The position numbers and the translations under genes are program-made. This document shows, in pieces, positions 18,262-31,540 of a DNA stretch of 64,000 bases; positions within the stretch are counted from its first letter, which is position 1, and each line of letters starts with the position of its first letter. Location: contig NZ_CAJAXH010000017.1 in the NCBI RefSeq assembly GCF_903946935.1, positions 62,001 through 126,000 on the forward strand, written 5' to 3'. The notes beneath the pieces are model-generated. The model saw nothing but the letters and a program-made list of their open reading frames with translations, had not been told where the DNA came from and made no database searches. The stretch is from an uncultured Thiodictyon sp. Its GTDB lineage: Bacteria; Pseudomonadota; Gammaproteobacteria; Chromatiales; Chromatiaceae.

Positions 18262-18321
18262 GTCCGCAAATGAACGCCAATGAACGCCAATGAACGCAAA
18301 TAAGACCGTTCATTTGCGGAC
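18262..18321. repeat. Hairpin (GTCCGCAAATGAACG / CGTTCATTTGCGGAC) enclosing AATGAACGCC direct repeats
   Basis: 15-bp perfect inverted arms; three AATGAACGC units. Confidence 0.7.
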
Positions 18322-18358
18322 GAATCATTCTTCGAATCCACACACGGAGATCAGGACC

Positions 18359-19345
18359 ATGACCACCTATCCCGCCTTTCGTATCCACCAAGACGCGCAG
18401 GGGCACCATGCCGGTGTCGAGCAACTCCCACGCCCCACGCCCACCTTGGGCGAGGTGCTGGTCCGGGTCGGCTGGTCCGGCGTCAACTATAAGGATGCGC
18501 TGGCCGGGACCGGTCGCGGCAAGATCCTGCGCCGCTTCCCCTTGGTGGGTGGGGCCGATGGCGCCGGGGTGGTGGAGGAGTCCGCCCACCCCAATTATCG
18601 GCCGGGCGAGGCGGTCATCGCGACCGGCTGGGGGCTCACCCACGACCATGACGGGGGCTTTGCGAGCTACCTGTGCTGCCCAGGCGAGTGGCTGGTACAC
18701 ATGCCCGCCGGGCTCGACCCCCGCACCGCCATGATCCTGGGCACGGCCGGCTTCACCGCCGCACTGGCCGTCCACCGGATGCTGGTCAACGGTCAGGACC
18801 CGGCCATGGGTCCGATCCTGGTCACGGGTGCCAGCGGCGGCGTGGGCGCCATGGCCGTCGCCCTCTTTGCCCGGCTGGGTTTTGACGTCACCGCACTCTC
18901 GGGCAAGCCCGAGCTCGCCGACTGGCTGCGCCACCTCGGCGCCACCGAGATCGTGGCACGCGACGCACTGGCAGCAGCCACCCGGCCCTTAGAGAAGGCC
19001 CGCTGGGGCGGCGCGGTGGACAACGTGGGCGGCGAGGTCCTGGCCCAGATCACCCGCACCATCGCCCCGCACGGCAACATCGCCGCCATCGGCCTGGCCG
19101 CCGGGACCGACCTGAACACCACGGTGATGCCCTTCATCCTGCGCGGGGCGAGCCTCCTGGGCTGCAACTCGGTGGATGTCCCCTACCCCGCCCGCCGCGC
19201 ACTCTGGGAACACCTGGCCAATGACTGGCAGCCGGCGGACCTGGAGTCACTGGTCGCGGAAACGGTCGGCCTGGACGCACTGCCGGAGGTCTTCGAGCGC
19301 ATGCTCGCCGGCCGCACCCATGGACGGACCCTGGTCAAGCTCTGA
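18359..19345 (+). CDS. acuI: Medium-chain dehydrogenase, YhdH/AcuI (acryloyl-CoA reductase) family
   Basis: VGWSGVNYKDALAGTGRGKILRRFPLVGGADGAGVV; VTGASGGVGAMAV. Confidence 0.88.
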   Translation: MTTYPAFRIHQDAQGHHAGVEQLPRPTPTLGEVLVRVGWSGVNYKDALAGTGRGKILRRFPLVGGADGAGVVEESAHPNYRPGEAVIATGWGLTHDHDGGFASYLCCPGEWLVHMPAGLDPRTAMILGTAGFTAALAVHRMLVNGQDPAMGPILVTGASGGVGAMAVALFARLGFDVTALSGKPELADWLRHLGATEIVARDALAAATRPLEKARWGGAVDNVGGEVLAQITRTIAPHGNIAAIGLAAGTDLNTTVMPFILRGASLLGCNSVDVPYPARRALWEHLANDWQPADLESLVAETVGLDALPEVFERMLAGRTHGRTLVKL

Positions 19346-19434
19346 GGCCCGGTTCCGGGTCTGCTGTGCCGGCGGTCGCAGAGTGCTGGCACCTGCTATC
19401 ATTCCGGACCAAGAAACATTGAGGAGTATTCGCG

Positions 19435-19671
19435 ATGGGCAGCCTCAGCGTCAGACGCATCGATGATGCGACCCTGGAGCATTTGCGGTTGAGGGCGGAA
19501 CGCCATGGGGTCTCCATGGAGGAGGAAGCACGGCGCATCCTGAAGCAGGCGGTGGCCGCCCCGGAGCGCCTCGGCGACCTCGCCGTTGGTCTGTTCAGTC
19601 CCGCCTACGGGGTGGCGGATTTTGAGCCTCCCGAGCGCGACATCACCGAGCCGCTGGCGTTTCCCCAGTGA
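19435..19671 (+). CDS. FitA-like ribbon-helix-helix antitoxin
   Basis: MGSLSVRRIDDATLEHLRLRAERHGVSMEEEARRIL; overlaps PIN toxin. Confidence 0.85.
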   Translation: MGSLSVRRIDDATLEHLRLRAERHGVSMEEEARRILKQAVAAPERLGDLAVGLFSPAYGVADFEPPERDITEPLAFPQ

Positions 19672-20093
19672 TCGTACTTGATACCAACGTCGTCTCTGAA
19701 TTCATGACATCGCCGCCGGCGGCGCCCGTGCTGGCGTGGCTGAACGCCCAAGACGCGGCCGGTCTCTACCTCACTACCATCACCATTGCGGAGATCGCCT
19801 TCGGCCTTCGCGCCATGCCCGACGGCAAGCGCCGGCAGCTACTACAGGACCGGTTCGAGCAATTCCTCGCGCAGGCGTTTCAGTCGCGTATCCTCGCCTT
19901 CGACGAGCCCGCCGCCCGCGCCTATGGCGAGATTCGCGGCGAGCGGCGCCAACAGGGGCGACCCATGAGTGCCTTCGACGGGCAGATCGCGGCCATCGCG
20001 AGGACCCGGGGCTGCGCCATTGCGACGCGCAACACCAGGGATTTCGAGGGCTGCGGTCTGGTGCTGATCGACCCCTTTGTCTATATGGAGTGA
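19668..20093 (+). CDS. VapC/FitB-like PIN-domain toxin
   Basis: VLDTNVVSEFM, TIAEIAFG, DGQIAAIARTRGCAIATRNTRDF. Confidence 0.9.
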   Translation: MIVLDTNVVSEFMTSPPAAPVLAWLNAQDAAGLYLTTITIAEIAFGLRAMPDGKRRQLLQDRFEQFLAQAFQSRILAFDEPAARAYGEIRGERRQQGRPMSAFDGQIAAIARTRGCAIATRNTRDFEGCGLVLIDPFVYME

Positions 20094-20216
20094 GCACGTC
20101 GGGCGGATGCCCGCCGGGCGATCCGTCATTACCCGAGCCGGCGGGTGGCGGAACCGCTGCGCGTTCCTCCGTCTGCGGGCCTTCGTCAGCACCATGATTC
20201 TCCCACCGAGACAGCG

Positions 20217-22847
20217 ATGACCAGTGACCTGAAGGATTGGAAACAGACTGCCATCTACGCGGAAGTCGACTCGGGCGCGCAAGCCGGACGGCCCGGATTC
20301 GCAGAAGCCAAACATCTGCTCGACTCCTGCATGAACCGGATTCAAGCCGTGCTGCAACAGGGCGGGACCGCGGCAACGGATTTCACCTTGCACGACGCCC
20401 AACACGGCTACCACGTCGCCGAGCGCATGGTCGAGATCGTTCCCGAGGACGTGCTCTCCCGGCTCACGGCCTTCGAGCTCGCATTGCTGCTCTTGTCCGC
20501 CTACCTGCACGACATCGGCATGACGCCGGAGCAGCATCGCGTCCGCGGCCACTACAGGTACCTGCTGACCGGAGAGCCGAGCGGACTGGCGGCGACCGAG
20601 ATCGACAGATTCCGCCAGTGGCTCGACGAGCACGGCGACGGCGTCACGCCGCCCCTCGCGGAGAGTCCGCCGACTGGTCGCACCCTGGGCGAGGCGGAAT
20701 GGCTCGTCGCGCACTATTGCCGGGAACGCCACAACGATTGGAGCGGAGAATGGATCGAGGCCAATCTGGCCGGCGAACGCCTCGGGACCTACCAGAACTG
20801 GCGCGATAACCTGATTGCCATCTGCAAGAGCCATCACGTCGGGTTCGACGAGCTGGATCATCCCCGGTTCGATCCCATCATGGTTGGTGCTGGCCATGTG
20901 GTCCATCTGCGCTACCTGGCCTCGGTACTGCGCCTGGCGGACGTGTTGGAGAACGATCCGGAGAGGACGCCTGAGGTCGTACTTCGGCAGCGGGACGTGG
21001 ATTCGTCCAGCCTCATCTATTGGCGTAAGGATCACGACATCACCACAACCAAGATTGGGGATCAGTATCGGCTCGAGGCGCATCCGCGCTCCGCACTGAT
21101 CCACAAGGCCACCAGGGACACGGCGGCGATGATTGAGGCCGAGCTCCTCGTCTGCCGCCGACTCGCGAACGAGACCGATTTTTCCCGGCTGCGCGGCTCC
21201 AGCACGGAGATGCCGCACCGTTGGAATCTGAGCGCCACCCTGACCCAGCGCATCGAGCCGCTGGATGGCGCCTACGAATACATAGACGGCAGCTTTCGCC
21301 CGGACGTGCGCCGCGTGCTCCGGCTGCTCGCCGGTGTCGAGCTCTATGGCGATCCGATGGCAGCCGTGCGCGAGCTCTTGCAGAACGCCTTCGACGCCGT
21401 TCGCGAACGCATCGCACGCGAGCGTCTGTCCGACCCTGGCAATCCGGACCTGCCCGATATGCTGGGCAAGCTCTATTCGGTCCAACTGCATCTGGAGCGG
21501 GGAACGGATGGGGATTGGCTGGTCTGCAAAGATCGGGGTGCTGGGATGAGCAAGTCCATCATCCGCGATCATTTCCTGGTGAGCGGGGCGGTCAAGCGCG
21601 CCGATCTGCTGCAACTGGCCCGACGTTGTGAACAGGCCGACTTCCGCCTGGAGCGCACCGCCAGATTCGGGATCGGCGTGCTCAGCTTTTTCATGGTTGC
21701 GGATCGGCTGCACATCCGCACCAGGCGTTGCCAGTCCGCCCAGTCCGGCGAGGCCAACGGCTGGAGATTTGAAACCGACGGATTGAGCGGATTCGGCGAA
21801 CTGAAGCGGGATCCGGACTGCCTCGAAGGGACTGAGGTTCGACTGCTTCTCAAGCCCGAGGTCATCGGCACGGATGCGAGCGCCTTTTGGGACAGGCTGT
21901 TGAGCTACGTTCGATCCGTGTTGCTGCATGTGCCTTGCAAGCTCCAGATCAAGTGCCCGTCGATCTCTGAAGCCTCCTGGTCCGTAGACGCCCCTGGATG
22001 GGTCCGCAAGCCGGGGGACTATGCCACCCAGTGTTTGACAGTGTTGGAATCCCCTGAAGAGCGGCCGTCAGGGCGGGGGGACCTGCCCGAGCAGCTCGGG
22101 GACTTGACGCCCTCAGAGCGGCTAACGCAGTGGCAGGGCGAGCGGGATCGGCGCACGCGGTTGCGCGAAGCGGCACACGAGCGACTGAGGTGGTCGCAGC
22201 CCGTCACCGGAGACTTGCCGGGCGGGCTGGGTCGTTTCCGTGTATTTTTCCCTTGGTTCGAGTTGGACGACGGGCCTTGCCTGGATTTCTTTAGCGTCAG
22301 AAAGGACGGAAGCACCAGGGTGCTCGAAACCGAAGGTCTGAGCGACAGGAGCACGCATGGTGTCTCTCCCTGGTGTCCCTTTGTCATGGGTTGGTTCGGC
22401 ATGACGGCCGATCATGACGCCGACTCCCTGAAGGAGCATCGCTGGCGAGGTGTCATTGAGGTGGACTGGACGGCCGCCGCCGCCGCGGGTCTGGAGGTCA
22501 GTCGCAACCGACTGCAACCCAGCGAGCAGGCGTTGAAGGCTATACGAGACCTGTACAAGAATCTCGCCGGGCAGCTCAGCGAGTTTGCCCGATCGCATCA
22601 AGCATCGATCTATGCCCTGTACAATACGGCTTCGCTGGATATCGAGCCCCCGGCTGCCGAACGCCGCTTCTGGTTGTATGAGTACGAGACAGAGCGTCAG
22701 TTCAATTGGCGCGCGGTATCTTACCCCTCAATTCTATCAGGAAGGGCAATATTTGATCATGGCCAATTGCGTTGGCAGGGCTACGATTATCCAAGTCTTT
22801 GCACCATTGAATTATCGATGGCTATGCCCAGCACCGGTCATCTCTAG
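20217..22847 (+). CDS. HD-domain phosphohydrolase fused to HSP90-like (GHKL/HATPase) ATPase; probably frameshifted near its 3' end
   Basis: HD motifs (LHDAQHGYHV, SAYLHDIGM, LRLADVLEND); Bergerat motifs RELLQNAFDAVRER, CKDRGAGMS, FGIGVLSFFMV. Confidence 0.85.
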   Translation: MTSDLKDWKQTAIYAEVDSGAQAGRPGFAEAKHLLDSCMNRIQAVLQQGGTAATDFTLHDAQHGYHVAERMVEIVPEDVLSRLTAFELALLLLSAYLHDIGMTPEQHRVRGHYRYLLTGEPSGLAATEIDRFRQWLDEHGDGVTPPLAESPPTGRTLGEAEWLVAHYCRERHNDWSGEWIEANLAGERLGTYQNWRDNLIAICKSHHVGFDELDHPRFDPIMVGAGHVVHLRYLASVLRLADVLENDPERTPEVVLRQRDVDSSSLIYWRKDHDITTTKIGDQYRLEAHPRSALIHKATRDTAAMIEAELLVCRRLANETDFSRLRGSSTEMPHRWNLSATLTQRIEPLDGAYEYIDGSFRPDVRRVLRLLAGVELYGDPMAAVRELLQNAFDAVRERIARERLSDPGNPDLPDMLGKLYSVQLHLERGTDGDWLVCKDRGAGMSKSIIRDHFLVSGAVKRADLLQLARRCEQADFRLERTARFGIGVLSFFMVADRLHIRTRRCQSAQSGEANGWRFETDGLSGFGELKRDPDCLEGTEVRLLLKPEVIGTDASAFWDRLLSYVRSVLLHVPCKLQIKCPSISEASWSVDAPGWVRKPGDYATQCLTVLESPEERPSGRGDLPEQLGDLTPSERLTQWQGERDRRTRLREAAHERLRWSQPVTGDLPGGLGRFRVFFPWFELDDGPCLDFFSVRKDGSTRVLETEGLSDRSTHGVSPWCPFVMGWFGMTADHDADSLKEHRWRGVIEVDWTAAAAAGLEVSRNRLQPSEQALKAIRDLYKNLAGQLSEFARSHQASIYALYNTASLDIEPPAAERRFWLYEYETERQFNWRAVSYPSILSGRAIFDHGQLRWQGYDYPSLCTIELSMAMPSTGHL

Positions 22848-22862
22848 GCGGACCGGGAATCG

Positions 22863-23549
22863 ATGCGTTTTATGAGAAAATCGGCCTCTTGGAACGCGGC
22901 CGCACTTCCGCCGGACCGACTGCTTGCGCGCATGGAGCGAGCGTGGATGCTCAAATCCGGGCACATTACACATCCTTGGATTTGGAGGAGAAACGTCAGC
23001 GCGGTTTGGACCAATGCGCCGACTTGGCGTGAACCCAGGGTCGCCTATCCCGAGATCGAGTTTCCCGCGGAATGGCAGCAGGTCTGCTTAGTCAACGATC
23101 GCACAGCTATCTATTTGAATCGAGACCACTGGTTGATCCGAGCGACGTCGAAGCACGCCTGGGAGCGATTGATAGACGGTACAGCCGGGAGTCTGGACCC
23201 GAGGACCAGGCGGGAAGAATGTGCGGCCTCGTCTGAGCTGTCGGCCGCCTGGTTCCTGTACTGCTTGTCGAGCAGCAACGAGACGCTCGTAAGGGGTCTC
23301 GCCGAGCATGCCCCGGACCTGATCCAAGAGCTTTGGAAGAGTGCAAGCTCTGACCAGACCGAACCGACTTGCTGGGCCTGGATTGCCCACACTCCCGGCG
23401 GGGCGTTGGTCGAAATCGGCGCACATGGCTGGCGTGAGTTCGACCCAGACAATAGTGACGACCAACGCGTCTGTGATGAGGTCATGCAAAAGCCTAGCGA
23501 AGACTGGTGCGTCTATCCAGTTTCCGGGGTGAATGAAGAGGACCAGTGA
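22863..23549 (+). CDS. Hypothetical ORF, probably the C-terminal part of the preceding HD-GHKL protein separated by compensating frameshifts
   Basis: Same frame as 20217-22847; bridging frame 22811-23032 encodes plausible protein. Confidence 0.5.
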   Translation: MRFMRKSASWNAAALPPDRLLARMERAWMLKSGHITHPWIWRRNVSAVWTNAPTWREPRVAYPEIEFPAEWQQVCLVNDRTAIYLNRDHWLIRATSKHAWERLIDGTAGSLDPRTRREECAASSELSAAWFLYCLSSSNETLVRGLAEHAPDLIQELWKSASSDQTEPTCWAWIAHTPGGALVEIGAHGWREFDPDNSDDQRVCDEVMQKPSEDWCVYPVSGVNEEDQ

Positions 23550-23838
23550 TTGTGTGGTATGTAGCAGATACCAAAATGGCCTCTGCCGCATACCGCTGAT
23601 TCAAGGCCAGTTGCAACGGAGAAGCATGGATGAGCCGCTTTGGGTGCCGGAACCGCGCGCGATCCGCCGTCAGCGGGCCGCCGAGCAGCCGAGCAGCCGA
23701 GCAGCCGAGCTCCGGAGGGTGCGTCGAGCGCTGCGAACTGCACCGCCCAGCCCCCATCCAAATGTCGCCCCACCTCGGCAACCGCCAGTCGCCGCGGTAT
23801 GCTTGGCGGAGCCCACCCCAGCATCGCGGAGGATGCGT

Positions 23839-24408
23839 ATGAACCTTCCCGCCCAGATACCCACCTTGAGCGTCCCCGACTATCTTGAGGGCGAACAGGA
23901 AAGCCCGATCCGCCATGAGTATGTGGCCGGTCGGGTCGTCGCCATGGCCGGTGCCGGCGAGGCCCATAACCGCATTGCCGGCAATCTGTTCTTTCACCTA
24001 CGCTCGGCCACCCGCGGCACCCCTTGCGGCGTTTTCGTCAGCGACATGAAGGTCCGGGTGGCGACGCACGACGCCTTTTACTATCCGGACGTCGTGCTGA
24101 CCTGCGACCCGACGGATCGGGAGTCCCTGTACAAAGCGTCACCCTGCCTGATCGCGGAGGTGCTGTCCCCGTCCACCGAGACGATCGACCGGCGCGAAAA
24201 GCTGCTCGCCTACCGCGCACTAACGGCACTGCGCTACTACCTGCTGGTGGCCCAGGATCGGCGGCTGGTAGAGGTCTATCAACGGGGTGCCGACGGTAGC
24301 TGGCACTACCAGGCCATTGAGGACGGCGAGTTGGCCTTTGCCTGCGGCGACCTCGACATCCGCTTCACCCTCGCAGACCTCTACGAGGACGTGGTGCTGC
24401 CCGCATAG
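23839..24408 (+). CDS. Uma2-family (DUF820) PD-(D/E)XK nuclease-like protein
   Basis: EYVAGRVVAMAGAGEAHNRIAGNL, YYPDVVLTC, LIAEVLSPSTETIDRREKLLAYRALTALRYYLLV. Confidence 0.9.
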   Translation: MNLPAQIPTLSVPDYLEGEQESPIRHEYVAGRVVAMAGAGEAHNRIAGNLFFHLRSATRGTPCGVFVSDMKVRVATHDAFYYPDVVLTCDPTDRESLYKASPCLIAEVLSPSTETIDRREKLLAYRALTALRYYLLVAQDRRLVEVYQRGADGSWHYQAIEDGELAFACGDLDIRFTLADLYEDVVLPA

Positions 24409-25073
24409 GGCCGGCCCTGCGGGGCTTCGGCGGTCGGATAAGGCCGCGCGGCGTAGCCCAGATGGACCGCTGGCAGGAATCCGGGTGCGGCCTCGTGGAC
24501 AACAAAAAGGGGGGCTGCCGCAAAATGGAGTCGGCCGCGTTCCCCCCAGCCGTCCCCGCTGCACTCCGGCATGCCGGGCCTCCCCGCCGCCTTTTGTGCA
24601 TACACTCCGGCCGCCGGGGCGGCGGGTGCGCGGTTTTCCGCGCCGACTCAGAGAGTTTTGCGCCGGTGCAGCCGGCAGTGTTCACACTCTGGTCTTCAGG
24701 GCGGACAGGCGCGCTGTTCCCGCCGCGGAATACGCCGGGGTGTCTACACAAAACCGTTTTCCGTCCTCCCCCGGGACTTTTCCGCGCGAGTCTATCCTGC
24801 TGTCTTAAAATAAGAAATTACGATCGTTGCCGGATGTGCGCCAGAGGGAGAACGGAAAGCGATTTTCCGGAGCGGAAAAGTGCGCCAGGGGACCGGAACG
24901 CTCGCCGGTGAACACCGAAAATCCGCACAGGAAATCGCTACGACAGAAACCTTGTCATTTTGGCGGTCAGCGTTGACGCAATTTCGGAAACCGACGCGGA
25001 TTTGTCGTCAGTGACTCACCAAATGGCGCGGTGGTGCGCAAAAAAGCCCCCACGACCTTCCTTAAAGGTTAGC

Positions 25074-25195
25074 CTAGCAGGCTGTCGGACTTAGTGATGC
25101 AACCGATTGAATGCAAAGAGTTTCATCTTTTGCGCCAAAAAGTCGTTTTCCTGTTTAATCAATCGGTTACGCCATCAAGTCCGACAGGCTGCTAG
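25074..25195 (+). mobile_element. MITE-like element copy 2, 122 bp including flanking CTAG
   Basis: One mismatch to copy 1 (TTTCATC vs TTTCCTC); CTAG on both sides. Confidence 0.85.
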
Positions 25196-25412
25196 AGGTC
25201 TTGATGCCCTGAGCCGCAGCACGTTCTTTCCCACCACCGAGGCCGCGCACGCGCTCGGGCTGCTTGGGCCACCTTGCCGCCGCACGGCCAGGACGAAGGA
25301 GCGAAGCGCCGTCCACGACGCCGCGGGATAGGGCGCACGGGACTACCGCCTGTCCATCGCAACGGCTATCCTCCGCGCACCCCTGCTCAATCCTGATCAC
25401 CGCACGCCACCC

Positions 25413-25859
25413 ATGACACCCCCGCCCGAAGCAGATCCGCAGATCGACCCGAGTCGTTTCTCCGCCCTCCCCGGCGGAAAGCGCAAGCTCAATTGGTTCG
25501 CCTTCGAGTTGGCGTGCGAGATCCGCCAGGCGATCGCGCCGCCGCTCGCGCGCACGCTCGCCAAGCGCGGCTATGATCGCGCGCGCATCGACGGCTCCTG
25601 CATCGCACTGGCGATCGGACTGCAAGGGGTGGTGCTGAAGCAGCTCAGGGGCGAGATCCCGCAGATGGAGATCGGTTGGGAGCAGGTCGAGGCCGCCTTT
25701 CCGGGCCTGACCGACAAGCTGCTCGATCGGTTGTTAGACGCTACGGGGACGGCCTGGGAGCGGCTCCTGAGCGTCTGCGTGGCCTGTCCGTCCGCCTGTG
25801 TGACAAATAAGGACGACCATTGTCCGATGTTCGACGACCCGCTTTATTCCGACGGCTGA
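25413..25859 (+). CDS. Hypothetical protein with C-terminal cysteine cluster CVACPSACVTNKDDHC
   Basis: Complete ORF; 3' end partially duplicated at 30757-31002. Confidence 0.65.
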   Translation: MTPPPEADPQIDPSRFSALPGGKRKLNWFAFELACEIRQAIAPPLARTLAKRGYDRARIDGSCIALAIGLQGVVLKQLRGEIPQMEIGWEQVEAAFPGLTDKLLDRLLDATGTAWERLLSVCVACPSACVTNKDDHCPMFDDPLYSDG

Positions 25860-25862
25860 TGC

Positions 25863-25978
25863 GGAGTCACTGGTCGCGGAAACGGTCGGCCTGGACGCAC
25901 TGCCCGAGGTCTTCGAGCGGATGCTCGCCGGCCGCACCCATGGGCGGACCCTAGTCGAGCTCTGAGCTCCGGTTCCGG
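25863..25978 (+). repeat. Duplicated 3'-terminal fragment of acuI (116 bp, ~94% identical to 19243-19358)
   Basis: GGAGTCACTGGTCGCGGAAACGGTCGGCCTGGACGCACTG... in both; I count 7 mismatches. Confidence 0.92.
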
Positions 25979-26004
25979 ACCCGCTGCGCCAGATCAGGTG
26001 GCAA

Positions 26005-26349
26005 TCAGGTGCCGTCGCGGTCCGCCGGTTCCCTCATCCACCCGGCGATATCGCGTTTGCCATGGAGTATGCGCCAGACATCGATGTGGTCCTCCCGCTC
26101 GCAGTAGAAAACGAGGTGCGGGTAACGCGCCAAGGGCCACGAACGCAGCCCCGGCAGATCCAGCTCAATGGCGTAGCGCGTCGACCCTGTCGCCGGGTGG
26201 GCGCCGATGTGGGCGTAGGCTCGCTCCAAGGCGTCAATAAATCCAAGCGCGGCCCGAGCCGCGTGCCGGGCCAGATAGTCGTCGATGATCGCCTCGACAT
26301 CCCGCGTGGCCTGTTCGCGAGGGATGACCGGCTTCTCGGTCACGCTCAA
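26005..26349 (-). CDS. RelE/ParE-family toxin
   Basis: VEAIIDDYLARHAARAALGFIDALERAYAHIGAHPATGSTRYAIELDLPGLRSWPLARYPHLVFY. Confidence 0.87.
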   Translation of the reverse strand: MSVTEKPVIPREQATRDVEAIIDDYLARHAARAALGFIDALERAYAHIGAHPATGSTRYAIELDLPGLRSWPLARYPHLVFYCEREDHIDVWRILHGKRDIAGWMREPADRDGT

Positions 26350-26579
26350 ACGCCCCGGCTGACGCGGGTCCGCAGTGCATCGAAATAGGTCCGGTCGGCG
26401 GGCGCCGCCGCGGCGGAGTCGGCGCCATCAAGTAGCAAGCCACGCAGCCGCTGGCGATCCTGGTCCCGCTGGATCAGCTCGCGCACATACTCGCTGCTGG
26501 TGCCGAGCCGGCGTCCGGCGACCTGCTCGTCCACATAGGACTGGAGCGCGTCGGGTAGGGAGATATTCATGGTGCTCAT
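26346..26579 (-). CDS. ParD-like antitoxin
   Basis: MSTMNISLPDALQSYVDEQVAGRRLGTSSEYVRELIQRDQDRQRLRGLLLDGADS; overlaps toxin gene. Confidence 0.88.
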   Translation of the reverse strand: MSTMNISLPDALQSYVDEQVAGRRLGTSSEYVRELIQRDQDRQRLRGLLLDGADSAAAAPADRTYFDALRTRVSRGV

Positions 26580-26788
26580 AACTGGAAGAATATCATAGCG
26601 GCAGCGATGCGGGGGACACCGCGGCGGGCTACCACGCCGGTCCAGGGGCTCCGGACCCCCGATGATGCACTGGGTCGTGGCATACTGGCGCAAAGCCCCG
26701 GGCGATGCACGATGCCGCGCAACGGTATTGCGAGCCAACACTGCCTGGGCGCCCCGCTCCTTTTGATCGAACCCTGAGCCCGAACCCG

Positions 26789-28561
26789 ATGGACTACGAT
26801 CTGACGCGCCTTTCGACCCGGTCTTTCGAGCAACTGGTCCAGGCATTGGCCGTCGCGGTGCTCGGCCCCGGCGTGAACGTGTTCGGCGACGGGCCGGACG
26901 GCGGGCGCGAGGCGACCTTCGACGGACCGGTGCCGTTTCCGAACGCCGCCGCACCCTGGGATGGCTATGGCGTGATCCAGGCCAAGTTCCGCCAGCGCCC
27001 CCTCGGTGGCGGCAGGGATGCCGATTGGGTCATTGACGCGCTCAAGGCGGAGATGGAAAAGTTCATCGACCCGGATCGCAAGCTGCGCCGGCCCGAGTAC
27101 TACCTGTTCGCGACCAACGTGGTGCTGACCCCGGCGGCCGGCAGTGGCGGCAAGGATCGGGTCGCCGCCCTCTTCGATGACTATCAAGACCGGCTCGCGT
27201 TCAAGGGCTGGCATGTCTGGGATCACGACCAGTTGTGCATGCTGCTCGATACCCAGGAGGCGGTCCGCACCGCCTATGCTGCCTGGATCACGGCCGGGGA
27301 CGTGCTCGCAAACCTACTGGCGCAGATCGCGCCGCGGACCCAGGACTTCCGGGCCATCATGGTCAACTACCTGCAGAAGGAACTGCGCGCCGAGCAATAC
27401 GTCAACCTCGGCCAGGCCGGCCACAACCCCGAGGGGCCCGTACCGCTGGCCCGGGTGTTCATCGACCTTCCGGTCGGGGAGCGGGACACCGGACCGCTCG
27501 CCTTCGGCGCCGGGCGGCTGGCGTCGAAAACGCCCGATCAGCCCACCGGGATCGCCGAGTTGCTCGAGATCGGCGGGCGGCGGCTGGACCCTGCCTCCAA
27601 TCCGCATAAGCCGCCAGCGCCGGGCGCCTTCACTCATATTTTTCTGGAACTTTTTGGGGATATATTAGGAAAGAGCACTCCGCCAGGCCGCATCATCCTG
27701 ATTGGCGGCCCCGGCCAAGGCAAGAGCACGCTGACGCAGTTCCTGTGCCAACTGCATCGGGTCGCCCTACTCACCGACATCGCCAAGGCCCCGCTGCTCC
27801 CGGAGGCGTACGACGCCTGCAGGCTGATCCGGGAGCAATGCGGGCGGGCGTCCCTGGCCCTGCCGGCCATGCCGCGCTTCCCGGTACGCATCGAGCTGAA
27901 CCGCTTTGCCGCGGCCCTCAGTGCGCGCGAGGTGTCGTCCCTATTCGGCTGGTTGCTCGCGCTGGTGCGCCGACGCACCGAGCGTGACCTGTGCGCGGAC
28001 GACCTGCGCGCCTGGCTCAAGGCGTGGCCCTGGCTGCTGGTGCTCGATGGCCTGGACGAAGTACCGGCCACCTCGAACCGCAAGGAAGTGCTCGATGCGG
28101 TGCAGGACTTTCTGGTCGATGCCAACGACTGCAATGCCGACCTGCTACTGGTCGCGACCAGCCGCCCCCAGGGGTATAACGACGACTTCTCCCCACGCTA
28201 TTTCCGCCATCGGGCACTGCTGCCGCTTGCGGTATCCCGCGCACTGCAATACGCGCAGCGCTTGGCCGAACAGCGCTGGGGCGCCGACCAGGACAAGGTG
28301 TCGCGCATCCGCGAACGCATGGCCCAGGCCGGGCGGGAGCCGGCCACCGCCCACCTGATGCAGAGCCCGTTGCAGGTCACGATCATGACCCTGCTGGTGG
28401 AGACGGTCGGCCAGCCGCCGCGCGAGCGCTGGCGCCTGTTCGACGAGTACTACCGCATCATCGTACAACGGGAGCGGGAGCGCGCAATCCCCGCCGCCGA
28501 TCTGCTGAACACCCACGAGGCGCAACGTCTTTCTATTCGCCGCCGGGCGCTGTTTCCATGA
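26789..28561 (+). CDS. PD-(D/E)XK (Mrr-like) nuclease domain fused to NACHT NTPase, 5' part of an apparently frameshifted gene
   Basis: FGDGPDGGREATF...GVIQAKFRQ nuclease-like motif; Walker A IGGPGQGKST; LLVLDGLDEVP; ATSRPQGYND. Confidence 0.83.
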   Translation: MDYDLTRLSTRSFEQLVQALAVAVLGPGVNVFGDGPDGGREATFDGPVPFPNAAAPWDGYGVIQAKFRQRPLGGGRDADWVIDALKAEMEKFIDPDRKLRRPEYYLFATNVVLTPAAGSGGKDRVAALFDDYQDRLAFKGWHVWDHDQLCMLLDTQEAVRTAYAAWITAGDVLANLLAQIAPRTQDFRAIMVNYLQKELRAEQYVNLGQAGHNPEGPVPLARVFIDLPVGERDTGPLAFGAGRLASKTPDQPTGIAELLEIGGRRLDPASNPHKPPAPGAFTHIFLELFGDILGKSTPPGRIILIGGPGQGKSTLTQFLCQLHRVALLTDIAKAPLLPEAYDACRLIREQCGRASLALPAMPRFPVRIELNRFAAALSAREVSSLFGWLLALVRRRTERDLCADDLRAWLKAWPWLLVLDGLDEVPATSNRKEVLDAVQDFLVDANDCNADLLLVATSRPQGYNDDFSPRYFRHRALLPLAVSRALQYAQRLAEQRWGADQDKVSRIRERMAQAGREPATAHLMQSPLQVTIMTLLVETVGQPPRERWRLFDEYYRIIVQRERERAIPAADLLNTHEAQRLSIRRRALFP

Positions 28562-30410
28562 CCGGGAGCACCTGCGCTACAGCATCCATACGCTGTGCTG
28601 CGAACTCAACGAGGGCGCCGGCCTCGATCGTGTGCTGCTGACCGGCTCCCAGCTCGCGCTCGACATCCTCGAAGACGGCGCGGTCGCCCGCCAGCCCGCG
28701 CAGTTGCGCCTGTTCGCCCGGCTTGCGCTGCGACTGACGGAGCTGCCGCCCGGCGATGCGCACTCTCGGCTGGCGCGCCAGTATCGGCCCGAGGTGGATG
28801 CGGTATTCCAGGAGGAGCTGGGCCGCGCCTTGGCGGACAGCGATCCAGTGCGCCGGCTCGGCGCATGGCGGACGTTGTTGCCGCTGGTGGATGGACAGGT
28901 GCTCTGGACCAAGGACTTGGCGGAGGCCAATTGGCCAGCGTCCCCCGAAGAGGCTATAGAAATTGTGGAAGCCAGCATGACAGGGAGGCTTGGCAGATGG
29001 GCGTTAGATCGATGGAGTGAGATCGTTTTTGAATTACCGCCCGTGCGCGTTCTCCGGTTTGTTACAAGCTATCAGATTGTAAGAAGGCTGAAACTGATTG
29101 ATGAGGACCCCTTCGAAACCGTTGATAAGTTGATCGCGGTCAAGCAGTTTGCCGTGCTCGAAGGTTCTGCCGAACATATCGATATTGCTCTTCAACCAGT
29201 TCAAGAGCCGCTGCATTGGCGGCTTGTGGGCTCGTTCCCAAGGAATGCTGTAACGCTTTCAGAGATTCCGCCGTCAGCACGATCCGATTGGAAATGGATC
29301 GGCCTGATCGGAGCTTTTCTTAATCGCCCCAGTTTGGGGGCGCTCGCCGAGCTCTTGCGCAGTCTGCCTGACGGAAGCTACTCAAAAGGCATTGGAGACG
29401 AGGTTTCGTGCTATACACCGTGGCCGGTCGGCGCATGCGTGACTGCGATCCGTCAGGGCTACAATAAGGAACGCCTGATCGACCTCGTTTCAACCGGCGC
29501 GTTAGGGACGCCGGAGGAATGGCGACGCGCGGAGATACGGTGGGCCAGCCAAGGATTGACATTCTCGGACCTTGAATACACTCCCAAAAACGACCTGCCC
29601 TTTGATCACGCAATAGAGCGTATCGGTTTCCCCTCCGACGTCGCGGGATGGGTCCGGAACTATAGCAGCGACGACCAATTTGGCGCTCTTGCTGAACTGA
29701 GCCGATCCATAAATCGCGAGACTGCCCGCCGGGCTCTTGCCATGTACTTGTTTGACCAGTTGGAGTGGGCCGATCCCACGCGCTCGGCACGCCGGTGGCT
29801 CAAGAATGAAGAGCTTCGAGAAATCGTTGCCCACGGGCGCGATCGCGAGGTTGGCTTGGACTGCATTTACCAGTTGTCGATTGCGCTAGGCGAGACAGAC
29901 GAGTCGGCCGAAATCTTGGATATGCTCGGTGATGTCAAAGAAATCGACGCAGGCGAACGAGATGTTACCGCAGAGGTAGGCGCTTCCCTTGAGCAAGCCG
30001 CCATCGCCCATCCCCACCGCGGCGGCCTGCTGCGCCTGCTCGCCAAGGCTTGCACGGACGGGTACACGCCGGAAGATCCGCGACTCCTGCCGAACCCCGC
30101 CGACTTCGGCGACGCCCGCATGCAGGCCGCTGCCTGGCTAGTCATCCTGGCCCAAGGGCGCCTTGCGCCTGAACGGGCAGGCACGCTGGTCAAGGTGCTA
30201 ATCGACTGCTCGACCGAGGAGCCGAGCGCGGTGGATGACGCGCTCGGGATCATTTCCAACAACGATCTGCCGGACGCGAGCGCCGAGGCCGTCCTGTTGG
30301 CGCTGATTGAGACCCTACCGCCGGAACGCTGGCAGACCCGTGGCGCGGTCATCGCCGCGATGCAGGAGCACCTGCGGCGTTACCCGTCCGCGAACCCGGA
30401 CCTTGCCTGA
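28560..30410 (+). CDS. C-terminal (predicted sensor/effector) region of the NACHT protein in a shifted frame
   Basis: Frame 0 reads HDREHLRYSIHTLCCELNEGAGLDRVLLTGSQLALDI... with no stop to 30410; the listed ORF start 28632 is an internal GTG. Confidence 0.7.
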   Translation, partial: DREHLRYSIHTLCCELNEGAGLDRVLLTGSQLALDILEDGAVARQPAQLRLFARLALRLTELPPGDAHSRLARQYRPEVDAVFQEELGRALADSDPVRRLGAWRTLLPLVDGQVLWTKDLAEANWPASPEEAIEIVEASMTGRLGRWALDRWSEIVFELPPVRVLRFVTSYQIVRRLKLIDEDPFETVDKLIAVKQFAVLEGSAEHIDIALQPVQEPLHWRLVGSFPRNAVTLSEIPPSARSDWKWIGLIGAFLNRPSLGALAELLRSLPDGSYSKGIGDEVSCYTPWPVGACVTAIRQGYNKERLIDLVSTGALGTPEEWRRAEIRWASQGLTFSDLEYTPKNDLPFDHAIERIGFPSDVAGWVRNYSSDDQFGALAELSRSINRETARRALAMYLFDQLEWADPTRSARRWLKNEELREIVAHGRDREVGLDCIYQLSIALGETDESAEILDMLGDVKEIDAGERDVTAEVGASLEQAAIAHPHRGGLLRLLAKACTDGYTPEDPRLLPNPADFGDARMQAAAWLVILAQGRLAPERAGTLVKVLIDCSTEEPSAVDDALGIISNNDLPDASAEAVLLALIETLPPERWQTRGAVIAAMQEHLRRYPSANPDLA

Positions 30411-30568
30411 ACGTCTATGGACTGGCAACCGAGGTCCGGAGGGTGTGGCAAGCGCGACGAACCGCACCGCCCGGCGCCCTGGCCAGTCCAAATGTCGCCC
30501 CACCTCGGCAACTGCCAGTCGCCGCGGTATGCTTGGCAGGGTCCACCCCAACATCGCGGAGGATGCGT

Positions 30569-30766
30569 ATGAACCTGCCCGCCCAGATAGCCACCTTGAG
30601 CGTCCCCGACTATCTCCAGGGCGAACAGGAAAGCCCGATCCGCCATGAGTATGTGGCCGGCCGGGTCTTCGCCATGGCCGGTGCTGGCGCGGCCCATAAC
30701 CGCATTGGCCTAAATCTCGCATTTCACCTGCGCTCGGCCACCCGCGGCACCCCCTACGGCTCCTGA
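30569..30766 (+). pseudogene. Truncated Uma2-family gene (65 aa) fused to the tail of the 25413-25859-type gene
   Basis: Sequence closely matches 23711-24030, then switches at CGGC to sequence matching 25761-25859. Confidence 0.88.
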
Positions 30767-30872
30767 GCGTCTGCGTGGCCTGTCCGTGCGCGTGCGTGAC
30801 GAATAAGGACGACCATTGTCCGACGTTCGACGACCGGCCTTGATCCTTATTCCGGGCATCCCGCGAACATTC

Positions 30873-30926
30873 GTCGCGGCCTGGGGGCCGCTCCTACCTG
30901 CGTAGGAGCGACCCCCAGGCCGCGAC
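30873..30926. repeat. Two-armed REP-like palindrome
   Basis: GTCGCGGCCTGGGGGCCGCTCCTAC-CTGC-GTAGGAGCGACCCCCAGGCCGCGAC. Confidence 0.8.
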
Positions 30927-31039
30927 GGGTTGCCGCAAGCGCCGGTCTAGCGGGAGCGATGACCAAGGCCCGACGCCCCGCTCTATTCCGACGGTTGATG
31001 CGCTTGCAGAGGAGGAAACGGCATGGCCCCAGCCGTCGC

Positions 31040-31477
31040 TTACAACCGCGCCAGCCACGCCTCGACCGCGGCCTCGATCTGCGCATAGGCCGCCTCGCCA
31101 GCGTCGCGCCCGCGGCGATAGGGGTCTGTAATCTCGCCCTCAGACCAGTGCCCCAGCAAATAGACCTTGCCCGCGGCGGTTGGGGCCATGTCCAGCAGTT
31201 CACGACGCTGCGCCTGTTCCATCACCAGCACCAGGTCCGCCCAGCGAATCAACTCGGGCTCGATCGGCCTGGACTCATGGGCCGAGAGGTCCAAACCGTG
31301 CTCCGCCGCCACCAGGCAGGTGGTCTCATCCGCCGGGTAGCGCAGGCCCGCCATCAGTCCGGCAGAGGCGACCTCGATCGTCCTGCCGGCGCGCGCCAGA
31401 CGCGCGCGCAGCAGCGCCTCCGCCAGCGGACTGCGGCAGAGGTTTCCTGTGCAAACGACAAGTAAATGACGGAACAT
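31040..31477 (-). CDS. Low-molecular-weight protein tyrosine phosphatase
   Basis: VCTGNLCRSP P-loop; DPYRRG. Confidence 0.92.
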   Translation of the reverse strand: MFRHLLVVCTGNLCRSPLAEALLRARLARAGRTIEVASAGLMAGLRYPADETTCLVAAEHGLDLSAHESRPIEPELIRWADLVLVMEQAQRRELLDMAPTAAGKVYLLGHWSEGEITDPYRRGRDAGEAAYAQIEAAVEAWLARL

Positions 31478-31540
31478 CAAATTACGCTCCGGTCGACACT
31501 CGGTGACATGGACTGCCAACCAGCAGGCTCAGCCCACATT

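Follow-up and report, generated by a model that had tools for sequence, protein, structure and literature searches.

A damaged member of the predicted HD-CE/HSP90 class of immune proteins, with an Hsp90-type ATPase as the putative switch of an HD effector

The window (the whole stretch of 64,000 nucleotides that was analyzed) contains a damaged gene whose product joins an HD-CE domain to an ATPase of the Hsp90 type. Intact, such a gene is quite probably an anti-phage system made of a single protein, an ATP-gated HD effector held under an Hsp90-type switch. The window protein is a fresh member of the HD-CE/HSP90 class; the class itself is not new. Nicastro, Burroughs, Iyer, and Aravind (NAR 2023) reportedly predicted both HD-CE effectors and HD-CE/HSP90 immune systems. 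We know of no experimental test of a protein of this type. Pfam already names HD-CE (PF24391) and iHD-CE (PF24401), and PMC12839542 and PMC12265719 cite the 2023 paper. The gene consists of the following parts.

20217..22847, plus strand: open part of the HD-CE plus Hsp90-type ATPase gene (876 amino acids), ending at a premature stop
20391..20945, plus strand: HD catalytic residues H59, H63, H98-D99, H172, H206, and D242 (amino acids 59-242), invariant in the 16- and 19-member alignments
21288..21866, plus strand: ATP site of the Hsp90 N-terminal type (amino acids 358-550), with N-box E386/N390/D393, G1 D439-G441-G443, G2 G485-G487, and T539
22491..22517, plus strand: 'EVSRNRLQP', containing R763 and resembling NVSREILQ, the catalytic-arginine loop of the Hsp90 middle domain
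22863..23549, plus strand: orphaned C-terminal tail, the same gene in the same frame past the stop, matching the C-terminus of the relative L075

Residues ~55-310 match the Pfam profile HD-CE (PF24391) with an E-value of 2e-42 (146 bits, where the cut-off is 27). The ATPase comes second, with its N, G1, and G2 boxes intact. By sequence search against PDB, it (residues ~358-550) finds HtpG and TRAP1, with E-values down to 8e-10, and the protein matches NCBIfam HSP90 at 2e-18. Profile-profile comparison pairs the ATPase with HtpG at a probability of 99.3% (the N domain alone aligned), and a Foldseek search with the ATPase of the AlphaFold model gives TRAP1 as the top match (E 6e-12). Matches of this strength go well past anything that chance would produce. 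The preliminary description, based on the sequence and its translations, had recognized an HD hydrolase fused to an HSP90-like (Bergerat/GHKL) ATPase. The profile and structure comparisons bear this out, and the six motifs it named (LHDAQHGYHV, AYLHDIGM, LRLADVLEND, RELLQNAFDAV, DRGAGMS, and GIGVLSFF) all lie in the plus-strand frame 20217-22847.

Of the ATPase residues, E386, N390, D393, D439, G443, G485, and G487 are likewise invariant in the 16-member alignment. Further along, all four of the closest relatives keep R763, and the arginine-loop motif is present in 25 of 45 family proteins, against 6.4 expected from shuffling. The ATPase is probably followed by a middle segment like that of Hsp90 and then by a C-terminus specific to the lineage. 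Profile comparison found no Hsp90 middle domain, the AlphaFold model is poor beyond residue 590, and no Pfam Hsp90 C-terminal domain was found in the HD-CE/HSP90 protein.

The gene lies, as had been noted, between a FitA-like/PIN pair and a Uma2 gene. These neighbors fall within a larger segment bounded by an oxidoreductase gene and a phosphatase gene.

18290-19345: oxidoreductase gene, left flank of the insertion
19233..19370: left copy of a direct repeat, the 3' end of the oxidoreductase gene (right copy at 25853-25990)
19346..31039: 11.7 kb insertion, absent at the matching site of two same-genus genomes
19435-19671, plus strand: FitA-like RHH antitoxin (family search)
19668-20093, plus strand: PIN-domain toxin (family search), neighbor of the HD-CE/HSP90 gene
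23533..24408, plus strand: Uma2-family (PD-(D/E)xK-like) gene, with a partial second copy at 30425-30760
26005-26600, minus strand: putative ParE-like toxin and ParD-like antitoxin, identified from ORF translations alone
26705-28561 and 28632-30410, plus strand: NACHT/STAND-type protein split in two frames, its N-terminal part like PADLOC Aga/PDC-S73 proteins
31040-31519: phosphatase gene, right flank of the insertion

The oxidoreductase and phosphatase genes are separated by 110-175 bp in the same-genus genomes G005 and G002 and by 1.4 kb in G007, so the 11.7 kb of the window represents an insertion or a variable site that has been greatly expanded. The window contains direct repeats in three pairs, 89-91% identical (19233/25853, 23757/30487, and 25761/30757). 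They give a common frame to two tandem cassettes with different cargo: the first runs from the oxidoreductase end through the FitAB-like pair, the HD-CE/HSP90 gene, and Uma2 to ORF148, and the second from an oxidoreductase end through the ParDE-like pair, the NACHT-like gene, and a Uma2 remnant to an ORF148 remnant. The large genes of both cassettes are broken. From this arrangement we infer that two alleles of one defense hotspot may have been merged by recombination. No integrase was seen at the locus, and an Rfam scan of the window from 14 to 34 kb gave no matches.

The preliminary description had treated 20217-23549 as one gene, while its mention of a repaired clone implied that the gene was broken. 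Broken it is, for a stop at 22845-22847 ends the frame, which resumes in the same register at 22863-23549. This tail does belong to the gene (its product matches, with E 1e-18, the last 133 amino acids of L075, an uninterrupted relative of 1058 amino acids from a same-genus genome, 55% identical to the window protein), but the whole is not one open frame. Without a continuous C-terminus, the window copy is thus probably inactive or decayed in the present strain. One may go further and regard it as a pseudogene in a decaying island, a remnant with no present function, and the balance leans somewhat toward this view, which is compatible with a defensive role for the family. The break may be a sequencing error, and no interruption affects the HD domain, the ATPase, or the greater part of the middle, which are all conserved; however, decay is favored over error because the adjacent NACHT-like gene is also split. 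A further HD-CE/HSP90 copy in the same genus (L120:9119-11809, in G007) is split into two frames as well, so the decay of such genes recurs in the genus.

Relatives of the protein are patchily distributed. Among genomes from the same family, 10 of 146 carry proteins above the Pfam cut-off, as do 5 of 369 in a sample of the class and 17 of 399 in a sample of the phylum. The clade containing the window protein unites members from Gammaproteobacteria with one from a viral contig and one from a Bacteroidota genome, which implies horizontal transfer. A scan of viral contigs turned up 23 relatives, and a scan of a genome collection with one query protein turned up one. A blastn search with two enterobacterial relatives as queries found no homologs in E. 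coli, and phage GenBank records yielded no more than Hsp90-domain or short partial matches. The relative on the viral contig L152, whose best segment shows 38% identity, adjoins phage tail and terminase genes. In the bacterial genome L088 and the viral contig L169, the gene is flanked by replication gene A of the P2 type and by the portal gene, a site known from Rousset et al. (PMC9122126) as an anti-phage hotspot. The relative in Chitinophaga (L033) has TmtA on one side and a GajA-GajB (Gabija) pair on the other. On plasmids, relatives have a TIR protein, Shedu, integrases, and AbiEii in their vicinity, and the defense genes adjoining relatives include Gabija, Septu, and Tmt.

Altogether, the neighbors of relatives matched 207 PADLOC models and an equal number of control genes, many from the same genomes, matched 8, a contrast that is overstated, as a single GajA protein matches 79 models at E 1e-8. 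Because the models are redundant, the enrichment that the preliminary description had proposed to look for is clear but unquantified. No neighboring gene family recurs across 49 loci, except among close phage or species relatives, so the HD-CE/HSP90 protein probably works alone.

The relatives differ in what stands ahead of the HD domain and, with it, in the state of the HD site. Fifty-one HD-CE/iHD-CE-HSP90 proteins were compared; two with a truncated N-terminus were set aside, and 49 were scored. In HD-first proteins, which have 25-84 residues ahead of the first HD histidine, the full set of HD residues is present in 42 of 42 cases, and in proteins with 216-320 residues ahead of the HD domain, it is present in 0 of 7. 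Residues E386/N390 of the N-box are kept in all compared proteins, and changes in G1/G2 are few. According to Pfam/PADLOC profile scans, the front part is a caspase in L081, L122, L123, and L125, a trypsin-like protease in L124, and an LmuA-like nuclease in L127 (scanned also as L060). The front part of L126, which groups with L127, has no Pfam assignment. The seven HD-lacking proteins form a single clade (support 100/99), so the HD site was lost once, and the split of 42 to 7 does not amount to seven independent cases. Within this clade, L122 with its caspase clusters with L127 and its nuclease, which means at least two changes of the front effector. The simplest reading is that HD-first proteins use HD as their effector and that whichever effector stands in front is under the control of the Hsp90 module.

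One of the caspase proteins, L081:8273-11248, is encoded on contig C186 of the window's own genome and consists of a caspase (Peptidase_C14), an inactive HD (iHD-CE), and an HSP90 ATPase; one genome holds HD-active and caspase versions alike. C-terminal wHTH-HSP90_Na-assoc repeats (up to 7) are present in five of the seven inactive-HD proteins (L122, L124, L125, L126, and L127), and none were found in L081, L123, or any scanned HD-active protein. Possibly the repeats are part of a sensor.

As to substrate, trigger, direction of gating, and protection against phage, we infer a scheme of the following kind. The N-terminal HD-CE would be the effector, a metal-dependent phosphohydrolase that, once released, most likely breaks down nucleotides, whether dNTPs, NTPs, or cyclic nucleotides. 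The Hsp90-type ATPase would be both sensor and switch. A protein or complex made by the phage might bind to it, or ATP might drive closure of the dimer, and either event would free or align the HD active site, bringing phage replication to a halt and probably sacrificing the cell. In 37 of the 42 HD-first proteins, the first HD motif reads HDxxH or HNxxH, the form found in class I PDEs; L033 matches PDEase_I at 5e-4 (below the cut-off), and a fold search with the HD model gives weak matches (best E 0.011) to PPX/GppA, cyclic-nucleotide PDEs (including PDE4 and PDE10), and SAMHD1. These resemblances point to a phosphoester hydrolase, its substrate unnamed.

The likeness to PDEs would also suit an HD domain that acts in signaling, making or removing a messenger while a separate factor kills or arrests the cell. 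This is unlikely. No partner gene recurs that could serve as the effector, and the loss of the HD site coincides with the gain of a known effector, which fits HD as the effector itself. A wider extension of the preferred reading, an HD effector under an Hsp90-type switch, is that the ATPase might be an immune receptor like the NLR/STAND proteins, one that senses a phage product and sets off an interchangeable effector in front of it, be it an HD nucleotide hydrolase, a caspase, a protease, or a nuclease, and that it serves prophages, from its place in the P2 hotspot, as a weapon against rival phages. We offer this tentatively, at rather less than even chances.

Since the best matches of the ATPase, in sequence and in structure, are HtpG and TRAP1, one might instead take the protein for a specialized chaperone of the Hsp90 kind that serves housekeeping or the stress response. 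That is very improbable and already largely contradicted: an ordinary HtpG coexists in the same genomes and constitutes a separate clade (100/100), the family is patchy, phage- and plasmid-borne, and carries HD or another effector fused in front, and the window protein scores 50.5 bits against the HtpG equivalog, far from the cut-off of 371, with the N domain alone aligned out of the N-M-C layout of Hsp90. The clear similarity to a housekeeping family that, according to the preliminary description, would speak against a defense protein is thus absent. Least credible of all is cooperation with the FitAB-like pair, which is 124 bp away on the same strand but was not seen beside other HD-CE/HSP90 genes, including those of close relatives L075, L033, and L152; with no conserved co-occurrence across the 49 loci, the partnership was rejected, and since no partner gene recurs, the pair is incidental. 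The candidacy for defense put forward earlier is supported by the relatives in prophages, plasmids, and defense islands; a meaning of the adjacent toxin-antitoxin module for it is not supported.

Compared with the HD-CE/HSP90 conflict systems as reportedly described, the window protein is alike in having HD-CE over the curated cut-off, a fused HSP90-type module, and a defense and mobile context; it differs in the C-terminus of the branch comprising the window protein, L075, L152, and L033 (no Pfam match in L075 and L033) and in being broken. The iHD-CE proteins (PF24401, e.g., L081) share the HD-plus-HSP90 core and the ATP site, but their HD site is dead, they carry a separate N-terminal effector (caspase, protease, or nuclease), and five of seven have the C-terminal repeats described above. 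HtpG and TRAP1 share the N-terminal ATPase fold and motifs and putatively the catalytic arginine loop, but they form a clade apart from the window family, which has an HD effector in front and no Pfam Hsp90 C-terminal domain that could be found. VcSduA, a Shedu protein with an N-terminal GHKL ATPase, is likewise (PMC12137116) a single protein whose ATPase is thought to control an effector that cuts phosphodiesters, both sites being needed for defense. Its effector, however, is the Shedu nuclease DUF4263 at the C-terminus, whereas the window protein has an N-terminal HD-CE and gave no match to DUF4263 in Pfam/PADLOC profile searches. Anti-phage dNTPases, the dNTPase-NTase systems (PMC12265719), and SAMHD1 resemble it in having an HD-superfamily hydrolase and a predicted action on the nucleotide pool; the window protein differs from them in its HD family, in having no NTase partner, and in its putative gating by Hsp90 rather than by nucleotide signals.

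The comparisons lend useful support to the earlier prediction of HD-CE/HSP90 systems. Beyond domain prediction, they add that the HD site survives in precisely those proteins that have no other effector, that relatives occupy the P2 A-portal hotspot, and that HD-active and caspase versions occur in one genome. Hsp90 is well known as a helper of NLR immunity in animals and plants. If the reading given here is true, a bacterial family would use an Hsp90-type ATPase as the weapon's own switch, and the origin of the link between Hsp90 and NLRs would become testable.

Against PADLOC-DB 2.0, the window protein has no strong match to any system model, the best being RT_UG24 (E 0.0027). RT_UG24 matches L033 and L099 at 1e-11 over the HD region. 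The HD-CE region of L099:8971-12057, L033:9986-13141, and L082:8923-12054 aligns with the C-terminal part of RT_UG24 (about 690-926), so the same HD effector may be part of this defense RT.
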